DNA from: Gemmatimonas phototrophica
GTDB taxonomy: Bacteria > Gemmatimonadota > Gemmatimonadetes > Gemmatimonadales > Gemmatimonadaceae
Direction of reading: 5' to 3'
NCBI RefSeq assembly: GCF_000695095.2
Contig: NZ_CP011454.1
Location: 2,976,001-3,040,000, forward strand
DNA length: 64,000 bases
A program made the position numbers and the translations under genes. The notes under the pieces were generated by a model. The model did not search any database. It had not been told where the DNA came from and was given only the letters and a program-made list of their open reading frames with translations. Shown here piece after piece: positions 27,844 through 33,709 of the stretch (position 1 is the stretch's first letter; every line of letters begins with the position of its first letter).

Positions 27844-30800
27844 ATGATTTGTGCGCTACGGCCCCCTGCCCGCTTTCGCCTGCGCTCTCCGGTATCCATC
27901 ATGCCGCACTCTTCCGTCTCGCCATTCCTTCGGCCGGCCGACATGTACACACCGCGATCTGACGATCACCTCTTCCCCGCGGCGTCTTCCGGCGCGGAAG
28001 ACGATATGGAGAGCTCGGCGGACTCGCCGCTCGTCAGCATCACGGTGCTCTCGTTGGGAGACACGCGGCTGCTGGTGGGAGACCAACAGCTCACCATGAA
28101 CAGTGCGCTGCTGTGCATCCTGTTGTTGCGATTGATTTACGCGCCCAACATGGCCGTACGTCGCGATCAGCTGTTGCGGGAGCTGTGGCCCGACCAAGAG
28201 GAACTCCGGCAGCGCGGCAATCTGCGGCAAGCGCTGTACAAGCTGCGGGGCATGGGAGTGCAAACCACCTTGCGTGGTGAAATGGTATACCTCGAGAGTG
28301 CACAGGTGCGGCGCACGTTTGCCCTGACGCCATCGGTGGCGCTGTTTGATCGGGACATCACCAACGGCTCGGATCCCTACGGTGTGTTTTTGCCCGGCTT
28401 TGTTCCACCGTCGCCGGAGCTGCGTGAATGGTACGATCAGACGCGAGAGGCACTGCACGGTGATGTGCGGCGGGTACTGGCCGATGTGCTGCGTGCTCGC
28501 CGGGAGCGCGCCGATTGGAGTGGCACGCAGATGGTAGCGCGCTGGCTGCTGCAACTGGACCCGCTGAACGAAGACGGGACGCTGGGGCTCGCCGAGTGTG
28601 TGGCCATGACGGGGTCAAAGGCCGAGGCGGTGGCGATCATTGATCGCTATCTGCAGGAGCTGGGGGCACACGCCGGCGACATTCGCCTGCCGGCCACGAT
28701 GCTGCGGAAACGTTTTGTGGAGCCTCCTCGTCGTCGCCGCTCGGTGGCGCTCGTCACGGACAAACATTTCGTGGGGCGTGATGAGGAGCTGAGTGAGCTC
28801 ACCATGTCACTGCGTCGGGCGCGCTGGCATGATGGCAGTGCGGTGGTACTGCACGGGCCGCCGGGGATCGGCAAATCCCGGCTCATGTCGGAAGTGCTGA
28901 AGGTGGCGCAGCTCGAGGGGTACAGCGGCGTCGTGATGGAATGTCGTGAGAGCATCGTCGGCCGTCCCCTCGGCGCCCTCATTGAAATTCTGCCGGACCT
29001 GTTGGGAGCGCCGGGGGCCATGGGCTGCGCGCCGGAGAGTCTGGCGCTGCTGCGGAAGTTGTTGGGTCCTGCTGCGGAGCCGGAGCAGCCTGACGCACCC
29101 GATGCGGCGGTTCCGCCCGCCGGTCTTTCGCCGGCGGAGCGTGTGGAGTGGGTGCTGCGGACGATCCGCGCGCAGAGCATCCGGCACGCCATGGTGGATC
29201 TGTTCGCGGCCGTGTCCGACGAACGGCCCATCTTTTTGTTGGCGGAAGATGTGCACTGGATGGACGACGCCACGTGGGAGGTGTTGTCCGATGTCGTGCA
29301 GCGGGTGAACGAAATGCGGGTGTTCATCGTGCTGACCTCGCGTTTCGCGACCATTCGGGAAGAACGCCCGGCGCGGCTGCCGGTGCTGCTGACCTTTCGT
29401 CGTCTGGCGCCGTTGGCCAGCGTGTCGCTGCGGGCAATGATGCACTCGGTGGCCAACGAACAGGGTGTGGAGGTGCCGGCAGAGGTGGAAGACTGGATCA
29501 TCTCCGGGTGTGAGGGCACTCCGCTCCTGCTGCGGGCGCTGCTGGAGCACTGGGTGGTGACCGGACATGCCGATGGAGTGCCGCCGAGCCTGGTGGCGCT
29601 GATCGATCAGCGCATCGACCGCCTGGGGGCGCACGCGCAGCAGGCGTTGCAGGCGATTAGTCTGCTCGGTCGGTTTGCGTCGCTGGAGCGTATCAAGCTC
29701 GTGCTGGAGTTGCCGGTGCACGAACTGATTCATGCCATTGAACAGCTGGAGCTGTCGGGGTGCCTGAGCACGAGCCAGTCATCGCTGGTGATTACGCACG
29801 ATCTGGTGCGCCAGGTCGGCGTGCGGCGCATGTCGCCCCTGGTGGACGCGGCGCTACGGGCCGCGATTGGCGACACGCTGGAGGCGGAGTACGGGAGGAC
29901 GGGGGATTTGGAGATACTCCTCGAGTCGCTTTCTCATACCGAACTCAGCGGTCGTGCGGATGTACTTCATCGCTTCATAGTCAAGCATTGTTCGGCATTG
30001 ATTGACGCCGGTCGCCCTTCTACAGTCCTTCGCGCAATCGAATCTCTGCACAATGAGATTCCCAGAACTAGACAAGAACGTCGGATTGTGAGACTTGAAG
30101 CGAACATGGAGTCTCAAAATGGCGCATCCGGAAGAGCACTGAGCCTGCTTCCGGGTGGTCTTCATTTGCCAGAAGATGCTCGAATACTCAATGAGCCGGA
30201 AACCGATGAATGCCTCTCGTTCGTCGAGGCCGCATACAGGTCTTCACCATTTGCTGACCCCGCGAGCCTAGCAAACTTTGCGGCCAGTGTTGTCCAGAAC
30301 ACTTTGGCATTGCAAGAGCATCGGTTTAGAGCCGCTGATATTGGTTTGATGATCGCGGCCAATACTTGTGATCCAAAAACTGCGAACGCGTGCTACTTAG
30401 GGTTGAAGTTATCGGAGCGCAGCATTCAGGAGGACGAGAGAACTCAGAAGATCGGCCTGCTTTACCATACTGTCTTCGGATCTGTTGAAACCGCAGTGCA
30501 ACTTGCCAATGATCTACTCGAGCGAAACGAGGACGTCAGATCAACAACCCAGAGCATTGCTGAATGCGGAAGAGCTGGTTACGTCCTTCGAATGGCGGGA
30601 GATCGCAGTCGAGCAAAATTCGCCCTCGAGCTTGCATATGAACGAGCGCTAGCCATTGAGGCACCTCGACTTGCGGAGTACCCGGCCTGGCAACTCGCCC
30701 AGATTGGAATTGAGGAAGGAAATTCCGAAGCCTCGAGTCATTGGACCACAACACTGCGGAATCTCGCTGAAGGAAACGCTGACGAGGCTGCAAACAGTTA

Positions 30801-31206
30801 CGTACATGGTCACTTATGCTTATTCGCAATCTCGCAAGGGAAAAGAAGGGAGGCCGAGTTTCAACTCGCGCGATGCCAGAAGACACTCGCGGGACTCCAG
30901 CCAATTCGCGCGTTGGCGTTTTCACTCGCCCTGGAACTTGGGGTAGGAATGATGGATAAACGCTGGGCACCGAACTCAGCGTTGATCAATGCAGCCCTAG
31001 CACATTTTGATCGTGTATCTGGATTCTGTGCAGGCGACTATTCTGCTTCAAGAATCGGTGAGGCGCTCATTCGGACGGGGGATTCAAACCGAGCCCGGAG
31101 CCTCCTTACACATTATCTGCAAGCAAAGCGGCGGGAGCGAAGTGCCCCCACCGCAATACTCAGTGCAGTATTGTCAAAACTAGAGATTCCACTTCCGAAA
31201 AGCTAA
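27844..31206 (+). CDS. BTAD/AAA-ATPase (SARP-AfsR-like) transcriptional regulator, chimeric in composition
   Basis: 1,120 residues if it starts at ATG 27844; an ATG at 28006 (residue 55) is plausible because the first 54 residues are not domain-like. From the longer start: winged-helix DNA-binding domain about 63-165, BTAD helical domain about 185-290 (PSPELREWYDQTREAL... RWLLQLDPLNEDG), AAA/STAND ATPase from about 305 with Walker A GPPGIGKS (338-345) and Walker B LLAEDVHWMDD, then a winged-helix and a TPR-like helical C-terminus (about 690-1120). The last third (from base about 29,900) has lower GC content and frequent AGA, CTT and AAA codons, unlike the first part, so the reading frame runs through a composition boundary. 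No frameshift is seen. It converges on the HD-GYP gene and overlaps it by 4 bases. Signal and targets are unknown. Confidence 0.88.
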   Translation: MICALRPPARFRLRSPVSIMPHSSVSPFLRPADMYTPRSDDHLFPAASSGAEDDMESSADSPLVSITVLSLGDTRLLVGDQQLTMNSALLCILLLRLIYAPNMAVRRDQLLRELWPDQEELRQRGNLRQALYKLRGMGVQTTLRGEMVYLESAQVRRTFALTPSVALFDRDITNGSDPYGVFLPGFVPPSPELREWYDQTREALHGDVRRVLADVLRARRERADWSGTQMVARWLLQLDPLNEDGTLGLAECVAMTGSKAEAVAIIDRYLQELGAHAGDIRLPATMLRKRFVEPPRRRRSVALVTDKHFVGRDEELSELTMSLRRARWHDGSAVVLHGPPGIGKSRLMSEVLKVAQLEGYSGVVMECRESIVGRPLGALIEILPDLLGAPGAMGCAPESLALLRKLLGPAAEPEQPDAPDAAVPPAGLSPAERVEWVLRTIRAQSIRHAMVDLFAAVSDERPIFLLAEDVHWMDDATWEVLSDVVQRVNEMRVFIVLTSRFATIREERPARLPVLLTFRRLAPLASVSLRAMMHSVANEQGVEVPAEVEDWIISGCEGTPLLLRALLEHWVVTGHADGVPPSLVALIDQRIDRLGAHAQQALQAISLLGRFASLERIKLVLELPVHELIHAIEQLELSGCLSTSQSSLVITHDLVRQVGVRRMSPLVDAALRAAIGDTLEAEYGRTGDLEILLESLSHTELSGRADVLHRFIVKHCSALIDAGRPSTVLRAIESLHNEIPRTRQERRIVRLEANMESQNGASGRALSLLPGGLHLPEDARILNEPETDECLSFVEAAYRSSPFADPASLANFAASVVQNTLALQEHRFRAADIGLMIAANTCDPKTANACYLGLKLSERSIQEDERTQKIGLLYHTVFGSVETAVQLANDLLERNEDVRSTTQSIAECGRAGYVLRMAGDRSRAKFALELAYERALAIEAPRLAEYPAWQLAQIGIEEGNSEASSHWTTTLRNLAEGNADEAANSYVHGHLCLFAISQGKRREAEFQLARCQKTLAGLQPIRALAFSLALELGVGMMDKRWAPNSALINAALAHFDRVSGFCAGDYSASRIGEALIRTGDSNRARSLLTHYLQAKRRERSAPTAILSAVLSKLEIPLPKS

Positions 31207-32531: not shown

Positions 32532-32564
32532 GGGAGAAAAGTGCCCGCCAGCCGGCTGACTATA

Positions 32565-32636
32565 TCAGCCCCAAGTCTTCAGGTCGGCAACAACAAACGA
32601 CCAAAGTGCATTCACGAGCTGGGCCAAGAATTCCAT
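32565..32636 (-). CDS. 23-residue hydrophobic peptide ORF with strong ribosome binding site
   Basis: ATG at 32636 to TGA at 32565. The reverse strand has GGGAGGTGA six bases before the ATG, the best Shine-Dalgarno match in the window. The peptide starts MEFLAQLVNALW, has a VV-containing hydrophobic middle and ends DLKTWG; hydrophobic residues recur every three to four positions, so it can form an amphipathic helix. It lies 33 bases upstream of the HD-GYP start. It may be a leader peptide controlling that gene, a small membrane protein or a secreted signal. Nothing is recognised by name and coding is inferred only from the RBS, frame and peptide character. Confidence 0.45.
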   Translation of the reverse strand: MEFLAQLVNALWSFVVADLKTWG

Positions 32637-32705
32637 AGTACGTCACCTCCCGTAGGGTAAGTCACGCGTGTCCCGCTCGGGACGCCACGTGCTTGATCTA
32701 GGTTG

Positions 32706-32745
32706 GCTCCGCTCCTACTACTGGCCTGCCCGCTCAGCTCCGCTC
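32706..32745 (-). repeat. Direct repeats GCTCCGCTC upstream of the peptide ORF
   Basis: GCTCCGCTC is found at 32706-32714 and 32737-32745 (31 bases apart, close to three helical turns), and an extra GCTC at 32732. The GCTC units are thus spaced 5, 21, 5 and 5. They sit 70-110 bases before the peptide ORF on the reverse strand and may be binding sites for a regulator that recognises direct repeats. The sequence differs from the GATGACAGTG repeat before the BTAD gene. Confidence 0.35.
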
Positions 32746-32790
32746 TAGACGGCTGACGGGGACGTTTGGGTTCTCGTCGTGACTGAGACG

Positions 32791-32826
32791 AAAAAAAGGT
32801 GAAAGGTCGATCACGGGGTCCCGTGA
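32791..32826 (-). terminator. Terminator-like hairpin and T-tract after the unknown 293-residue gene
   Basis: TCACGGG (32811-32817) and CCCGTGA (32820-32826) form a near-perfect palindrome 1 base beyond the stop; on the reverse strand it is followed after 13 bases by seven T (32797-32791). The spacing is longer than standard, so efficiency is uncertain. Confidence 0.5.
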
Positions 32827-32827
32827 C

Positions 32828-33709
32828 CTAGCGCTCCAGGTGCACCCACCGGTTGGTCGCGTCGAGTACTGACAACACCGCACTCGTTTCCGCGCTCTCC
32901 CGTACTTCACAGCTACCCGTCAGGCATACCGGCTCACGTCCCACCCGCGCCGATACGCTCACAAACACAAATTCGCGATCGAACGCATCCACCAGCTTCG
33001 CCCCCTCCAACGCGAGGCTCCGCTCACCGCCTGGAGTGGACTTCATGGCCGAGCCGATGGCCTGCAACGTGGCCCGCGCGGCCAACTCAATGCGCGATCG
33101 CTCCGTCTCCTGCCCCTCGGCCTCACCAAAGAATTCCTGTCCGTCACGCGACAACGCGACCCGACACAGCACCCCACGCGACCGCGACCGACGAACCTCG
33201 ACGTCCTCAAAAATCAGCAACCGCCGCCCCGCCGCGACATCCGGGAGGGGCGCCGAAGAGAAAGACGACCGACTCCCCCCGACGGCACTGGCGTCCGGAG
33301 CCACAGAAGCAGCGGTGGAAACCGCCGGCGGCACCTCCGTGCCGGCAGCCGGCGTGGCCACCGGGGCCGCCGCAGGTGCTCCCCCCGCCACCGCACTCAA
33401 TCCCGACGCCACCGGCTCGGCGGGCACATCCGTCGCCCGCGGCGCGTCCAGCGTCGTGGCAATGGAGATCTTCCGGTGGTTCACCCGCAGGCCGAGCTGC
33501 GCCATGAGCGCGCTTTCGATGTTGCGGACCGTGTTCTTGGGGGGAACCTGATCGGTAGTCAGGACGTGGATTTCATCCACCGCCCCTGAGTCCCCAGGGA
33601 CGATCCGTACAGAAATGACGCCGGGGAGCGTGGAGATCAGCTCCTCGGCGCGCCTGATAGGAAGGACGCTGCCAGCGATGCTGCCAAGAGCAGATAACGG
33701 GCTCGTCAT
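32828..33709 (-). CDS. Conserved-looking protein of unknown function with ACT-like N-terminal domain
   Basis: 293 residues. Residues 20-90 (STLPGVISVRIVPG, EIHVLTTDQVPPKNTVRNIE, LGLRVNHRKISIA) form a beta-alpha-beta pattern reminiscent of ACT-like or alkaline-shock-like small-molecule domains. A long Ala/Pro/Val linker (95-155) leads to a second domain (160-293) with strands FEDVEVRRSR, CRVALSRDGQEFFGEAEG, FVFVSVSARV and a helix AARATLQAIGSAM. No signal peptide or membrane segment is present. I do not recognise the family and assign no function. It is on the same strand, 160 bases after the sigma-54 activator, and ends in a terminator. Confidence 0.72.
   Translation of the reverse strand: MTSPLSALGSIAGSVLPIRRAEELISTLPGVISVRIVPGDSGAVDEIHVLTTDQVPPKNTVRNIESALMAQLGLRVNHRKISIATTLDAPRATDVPAEPVASGLSAVAGGAPAAAPVATPAAGTEVPPAVSTAASVAPDASAVGGSRSSFSSAPLPDVAAGRRLLIFEDVEVRRSRSRGVLCRVALSRDGQEFFGEAEGQETERSRIELAARATLQAIGSAMKSTPGGERSLALEGAKLVDAFDREFVFVSVSARVGREPVCLTGSCEVRESAETSAVLSVLDATNRWVHLER

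Follow-up and report, generated by a model that had tools for sequence, protein, structure and literature searches.

What is encoded by a short open reading frame (ORF) that carries a strong Shine-Dalgarno (SD) sequence and stands before a gene that has none? This question is raised by a 23-codon ORF of Gemmatimonas phototrophica, found in the 64,000-nucleotide stretch of DNA that was analysed here as a whole (the window). The gene that follows encodes a membrane HD-GYP enzyme. The peptide might be a signal, a leader whose translation controls the next gene, or a small partner of the enzyme.

Location and Gene Order

The features of the locus are listed in Table 1. The start codon of the ORF lies six bases 3' of its SD sequence. 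The 8-mer GGAGGTGA has a single occurrence in the window (both strands scanned), which is inside this SD sequence, and neither of the two AGGAGGTG sites in the window has a start codon at SD distance. The claim of the original prediction that the ORF has the best ribosome binding site of the window is thus confirmed. The HD-GYP ATG is found 33 nt past the ORF stop, and has no SD sequence of its own; the sole purine run upstream is GGCGGG, in the 3' arm of an RNA stem. Both the spacing and the missing ribosome binding site had been correctly predicted.

Table 1. Features of the locus in window coordinates.
Feature	Position	Strand	Remarks
AAA_16/TPR regulator	27844..31206	plus	convergent with HD-GYP; conserved neighbour in Gemmatimonadaceae
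MASE9-HD-GYP c-di-GMP phosphodiesterase, 442 aa	32531..31203	minus	PF20972, PF13487
P1 long-range stem, 3' arm CGGCTGGCGGGCAC	32541..32554	minus	10 nt past the ORF stop; holds the sole purine run before the HD-GYP start
23-codon ORF MEFLAQLVNALWSFVVADLKTWG	32636..32565	minus	ATG at 32636, TGA stop ending at 32565
ORF codons GCCCAGCTC	32616-32624	minus	pair with leader GAGCGGGC
SD sequence GGGAGGTGA of the ORF	32651..32643	minus	within near-invariant GGGAGGTGACGC
Covarying leader hairpin	32662..32692	minus	two-sided changes at 6 of 11 pairs
Invariant GAGCGGAGCCAACC	32701..32714	minus	pairs with the SD strand: GCG/CGC, GCC/GGU, CC/GG, with purine-rich internal loops between
Leader GAGCGGGC	32728..32735	minus	pairs with ORF codons; nearly invariant, so without covariation support
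P1 long-range stem, 5' arm GTCCCCGTCAGCCG	32750..32763	minus	
293-aa gene	33709..32828	minus	no Pfam match

The ORF had been placed between a helical-repeat regulator and the HD-GYP gene, which proved wrong. On the minus strand the order is the 293-aa gene, the ORF, and the HD-GYP gene; the regulator is located on the plus strand, on the far side of HD-GYP. It had also been described as a BTAD regulator with a TPR-like C-terminus. Pfam found AAA_16 and a sub-threshold TPR match in it, and no BTAD domain. Of 110 loci searched, 65 gave a match to the regulator, which is on the strand opposite to HD-GYP in 63 and on the same strand in L080 and L085. The 293-aa gene was matched in 68 of the 110 loci, always on the HD-GYP strand. 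In this set many loci represent one genome taken from two collections, and both counts may be partly due to synteny alone. The N- and C-terminal parts of the 293-aa protein are conserved (VLDATNRW), and a terminator-like hairpin was seen by eye near 32815, 3' of its gene.

Conservation of the ORF and Its Linkage to HD-GYP

From Gemmatimonadota, 88 distinct ORF versions (elements) were collected, 80 starting with ATG and 8 with GTG. A Trp stands within the last three residues in 81 of them (second-last in 69, last in 11, and third-last in 1); there are usually one or two Trp codons per ORF, and no codon run. Third codon positions are the most variable among 28 genus-level ORFs, and the dN/dS ratio is 0.356 (320 pairs; mean dN 0.321, mean dS 0.902). 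The dS value is probably depressed, because the ORF codons GCCCAGCTC also pair with the leader GAGCGGGC, which imposes an RNA constraint on the coding region. The short ORF is real, and comparison with relatives indicates selection at the amino-acid level. Frame-disrupting variation, which would have spoken against a coding role, is limited to one frameshift among the 88 elements (L195, genome G150). The HD-GYP gene there is interrupted by about 1 kb of unrelated sequence, a single case of co-decay.

The ORF is linked to HD-GYP by conservation and co-occurrence. All 41 relatives searched gave an HD-GYP match; many of these matches span just the HD domain, and most of the genus has full-length ones. 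A wider contig search gave matches at 80 loci, and the full-length ones carry the same leader and ORF upstream. A covariance model (R1), built from the leader core, was used to search 249 Gemmatimonadota genomes. It gave one strong match in the G. phototrophica genome (E 3.9e-22; the next was 0.37) and matches in 81 of the 249 genomes, nearly all single. Sixty R1 match places were retrieved, and 55 have an HD-GYP match; among the other five, L148, L150, L180, and L191 are contig ends, and L181 is weak and belongs to another family of the class.

When HD-GYP was scored at E<=1e-55, it was present in 120 of the 249 genomes. Element and HD-GYP occur together in 75 genomes, the element alone in 6, HD-GYP alone in 45, and neither in 123. 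The element-alone genomes comprise two weak matches (G062, G223), three contig ends (G156, G160, G169), and the disrupted HD-GYP gene of G150. For the HD-GYP-only genomes, 40 upstream regions were retrieved, and 32 have an SD sequence and an ORF ending in W or Wx behind a diverged leader. The Trp is located further in at L284; the ORFs of L293, L294, L301, and L308 have the same layout without a C-terminal W; and no such ORF was found at L278, L310, and L311. As a chance control, an ORF of 6-40 aa preceded by GGAGG/GAGGT and ending in W or Wx occurred in 0 of 1752 random windows of the retrieved loci; the orthologues were mostly positive.

A C-terminal W is also missing at L161. In clade g2 (L174, L293, L294, L301), the ORF and leader are kept, and I/L replaces the C-terminal Trp. 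An interpretation of L174 as a Trp-to-stop change was dropped, as related genomes form a clade with I/L in that position. L010 (G003) carries a second, similar ORF copy upstream, before an N gap. The element also matches twice at or near contig ends in G052, G063, G107, and G222, and seems to be duplicated in some genomes.

Layout of the Peptide

The peptide MEFLAQLVNALWSFVVADLKTWG consists of a hydrophobic segment, a small residue (A), an acidic residue (D), three further residues, W, and one last residue before the stop. For comparison, 79 of 85 unique peptides were aligned on the last W; six without W in the last three residues were excluded, as was the frameshifted L195. Positions -12 to -6 from W are mostly hydrophobic. 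A/G/S is found at -5 in 60 of the 79 peptides, D/E at -4 in 45, and G at +1 in 26, counts which are inflated by relatedness. Typical ends are VVA-DLKTWG, AFR-DSIVWN, LMA-DTATWT, and VLG-DTLVWR. Families f5 and f7 are W-ended, with the acidic residue mostly absent.

Outside the genus the N-terminal half shows little conservation, while the C-terminal W is kept. The N-terminus is without the positive charge of a classical signal peptide. Genes for an M50 protease and for oligopeptide binding (SBP_bac_5) are present in the G. phototrophica genome; they allow, but do not support, peptide processing and uptake. The L282 (G229) ORF is MLAWAMALFTGKILWTGKILW, and its end TGKILWTGKILW is the terminal hexamer in tandem, an observation that forms a bridge to the acidobacterial arrays described below.

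RNA Structure Around the ORF

The SD strand GGGAGGTGACGC is paired with GAGCGGAGCCAACC in 100% of the cells of 16 sequences, and 6 of the 8 pairs never vary. As it is nearly invariant, this helix is supported by conservation and folding; distant members show compensatory changes at one pair. Compared with shuffles, the folding energy (MFE) of the window element is lower by only 1.8 sd, and RNAalifold on a poorly aligned set of 49 sequences gave only 7 pairs with weak covariation. The structure was tested afterwards on an alignment of 16 genus-level sequences. In this alignment, 94.8% of the cells are paired and 8 pairs show two-sided changes, a score that was reached by 0 of 500 shuffles and is far above that of slid versions. 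The closed RNA structure is supported by this covariation.

The long-range stem P1 brackets the ORF. Its 3' arm begins 0-23 nt past the ORF stop in the 63 elements listed, and the tract between the stem and the HD-GYP start is pyrimidine-rich (38% T, 32% C). The sequences of the arms diverge widely between lineages, with complementarity kept. The mean pairing energy (n=83) is -32.5 kcal/mol for the own partner, -24.3 for foreign partners, and -20.9 for shuffled ones. These means differ clearly, yet in only 14% of loci is the top-ranking partner the own one (median rank 7 of 82); foreign partners also pair, because many lineages share C-rich/G-rich arms. Own and foreign partners were only mildly separated by the longest helix (10.4 vs 8.7). 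A known riboswitch or other Rfam RNA family was rejected, since the Rfam scan of the window element gave no match (up to E 5, one chance match on the opposite strand) and 13 related loci gave none at the gathering threshold.

The HD-GYP Enzyme and Its Sensor Domain

The catalytic motifs of the enzyme (HD and HHENWDGTGYP) are intact, and HD and HHExxDGxGYP are conserved in 30 aligned sequences. In the AlphaFold model (mean pLDDT 81), the HD-GYP domain matches the fold of HD-GYP structures with Z 22-24. Residues ~30-200 match many S-components of ECF transporters with Z 10-12.7 and rmsd 3.3-4.5 over 150-190 residues, among them those for folate, riboflavin, thiamin, and biotin at Z 10-12; helical bundles can reach such Z values by arrangement alone. 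The modelled fold of the MASE9 sensor domain may resemble ECF S-components, a resemblance of fold that shows no function. The known ligands of S-components are small molecules, not peptides. Most membrane HD-GYP enzymes are without a known signal.

Hexapeptide Arrays in Acidobacteriota

In Acidobacteriota, a homologous MASE9-HD-GYP-GAF gene stands downstream of a subtilase that ends in tandem hexapeptides. The subtilase domain (PF00082) was found in 4 of 4 upstream proteins scanned. The units of 21 arrays are of the types DTIIWA, DTIVWS, DTLVWG, ESIIWG, DQIIWG, DGIAWS, DTIVWG, and others; the consensus is mostly D/Q/N/S/E at -4, then T/S, I/L, V/I, W, and G/S/A. A micro-ORF of 7-11 residues with an IIWGE-like end (such as MKPLIIWGE and MSRLIIWGE) is found 3' of the array in 25 of 34 loci, and 23 of the 25 have an SD-like sequence before it. 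No acidic residue stands at the D/E (-4) place of the acidobacterial micro-ORF. At L206, the automated pick was the array end; the micro-ORF there is MVAVIIWGD, after the array. The bare micro-ORF pattern occurs in these loci at a chance rate of 14/720, arrays included.

Arrays were present at 8 of 8 further orthologous HD-GYP loci (seven by script, L326 by eye), and array and micro-ORF were found at 0 of 12 paralogous ones. A P1-like long-range stem was not detected around the micro-ORF (own -34.3, foreign -35.1 kcal/mol); the terminal motif is therefore kept without this RNA. Immediately downstream of HD-GYP, and co-directional with it, stands a regulator that has a sigma-54 interaction domain (Sigma54_activat in 7 of 7 scanned; TPR, E below 0.01, in 4 of 7). 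A search of the G. phototrophica genome found no subtilase with a DTIVWG array, with the acidobacterial genome G269 as positive control, so motif and receptor are the only links between the two phyla. AlphaFold models the array as unstructured (pLDDT 22-32), which is uninformative either way. Three acidobacterial HD-GYP matches (L205, L224, L225) carry one in-frame stop each.

Possible Functions of the Peptide

The reading that we prefer is that the C-terminal [D/E]-x-x-x-W-x hexapeptide, here DLKTWG, is a functional cue for the MASE9-HD-GYP enzyme and possibly for the TPR-AAA regulator, with production gated by RNA. Its probability is put at slightly below one half. The ORF would make a short precursor, and the terminal hexapeptide would be its product. 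The SD sequence held in the conserved helix may act as a gate on ORF translation. Once the helix opens, the ribosome would read the ORF to its stop, P1 would melt, and the SD-less HD-GYP gene would be translated. Peptide and receptor might thus be made together, since translation of the ORF would let HD-GYP be translated. In Acidobacteriota, an exported subtilase would bear the same cue as tandem units, and in most cases the separate micro-ORF would encode it too. The inferred steps are processing of the precursor ahead of the acidic residue, export, recognition by either the S-component-like domain or the TPR regulator, and the coupling mechanism. A more specific version, in which an ECF-S-component-type sensor that controls HD-GYP has a diffusible hexapeptide (single in Gemmatimonadota, arrayed in Acidobacteriota) as its ligand, with the TPR-AAA regulator as a second output, appears rather doubtful.

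The main rival is a purely cis-acting leader: translation, or a sequence-specific stall at W-x-stop, would open P1 and control the translation or transcription of HD-GYP, and the peptide would be a by-product. The covarying RNA pairs with the SD sequence of the ORF and brackets its stop, which strengthens the leader peptide that had been named as the simpler alternative. The better pairing of own P1 arms, the short distance from the stop to the 3' arm, and the pyrimidine-rich tract before an SD-less start point the same way, and so strong an RNA structure could mean that the act of translation alone matters. However, selection acts on the amino acids, and the W residue is kept though its place shifts (last, second-last, fifth or sixth from the end). 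The motif is also common to the acidobacterial arrays and to micro-ORFs without a long-range stem, and a stall motif that occurs more than 10 times in one protein is implausible. A leader alone therefore leaves the cross-phylum motif beside the same kind of receptor unexplained, and this account is considered a tentative possibility. The peptide cue with RNA-gated co-expression is preferred because it covers the constrained ORF, the bracketing RNA, and the cross-phylum motif. The signal and leader readings are not exclusive, and both can hold.

The hydrophobic N-terminal half, the adjoining membrane-protein gene, and the co-decay in G150 would also fit a small protein bound to the enzyme's membrane domain as a partner, like the small membrane regulators encoded beside their targets. 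Such a partner seems unlikely: it is the C-terminal W and not the N-terminal half that is kept outside the genus, and the acidobacterial peptides of 7-11 residues are too short for a membrane subunit, with the motif arrayed on a subtilase as well. Convergence is the least probable account and is regarded as very improbable. Here, the W motif of Gemmatimonadota and the acidobacterial arrays would be unrelated, and the arrays would serve the subtilase as a structural or anchoring tail. Sequence homology cannot be demonstrated for motifs so short; yet in both phyla the motif immediately precedes a MASE9-HD-GYP gene of the same kind, with none before the 12 paralogues, and the hexamer is duplicated within one Gemmatimonadota ORF (L282). 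A type I toxin was set aside, given the fixed place before HD-GYP and the mostly single copy.

The locus offers a genome-encoded candidate cue, fixed beside an HD-GYP enzyme over a whole class, with a motif that is found again in a second phylum. With a hexapeptide and a reporter, the receptor, the peptide, and the RNA gate can all be tested. Two families missing from the libraries searched, one of RNAs and one of micropeptides, would also be added. If the leader reading alone is true, the locus would still hold a translational switch for a c-di-GMP enzyme, widespread and so far undescribed. If the diffusible hexapeptide is real, a peptide-to-c-di-GMP signalling system would extend across two phyla.

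Comparison with Known Systems

Leader peptides such as TnaC and the ErmC leader are short ORFs upstream of a regulated gene, with initiation regions in RNA structure and a Trp near the stop. The ORF before HD-GYP is likewise short, with a Trp near the stop and its initiation region in a predicted RNA structure, and the HD-GYP gene after it would be the regulated one. Unlike those leaders, it has a motif that is found again as arrays in another protein and also where there is no long-range stem, and it has no regulatory codon run. The precursors of yeast alpha-factor-type pheromones carry short units in tandem at the C-terminus, as the putative acidobacterial precursor does; the units here are on a subtilase with catalytic residues, and their release is putative. 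The partner gene is a member of the MASE9-HD-GYP phosphodiesterases by its domains and intact catalytic motif. It differs in the possible resemblance of its modelled sensor domain to ECF S-components, and in a candidate peptide partner, which was not found for this family in the literature searched. That literature, which covers few subscription papers and includes PMC3679016 and PMC7564271, was found to describe neither a peptide ORF nor an RNA motif nor a subtilase array beside HD-GYP genes.

The SHP/Rgg systems (RRNPP) of streptococci were the model for the signalling module of the original prediction. According to PMC3679016, the mature SHP is the C-terminal part of its precursor and opens with Asp or Glu. 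The precursor here is also short and hydrophobic, with a small and then often an acidic residue a set number of places before the end, and a TPR-containing regulator is a conserved neighbour. The acidic residue stands at W-4 in 45 of 79 peptides and is absent in most class-level families. A regulator of the Rgg type (helix-turn-helix and TPR) was not found by Pfam beside the ORF in either phylum; the neighbours are AAA_16/TPR in Gemmatimonas and TPR/sigma-54 in Acidobacteriota. A membrane HD-GYP enzyme as constant partner, a conserved Trp, a structured RNA, and the phyla Gemmatimonadota and Acidobacteriota also set this system apart. The module idea thus stands in part: the peptide is conserved, coding, and tied to HD-GYP, a TPR-containing AAA+ neighbour occurs in both phyla, and hexapeptide arrays were found, but the neighbour is not of the Rgg type. 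The likeness to SHPs is one of layout only.
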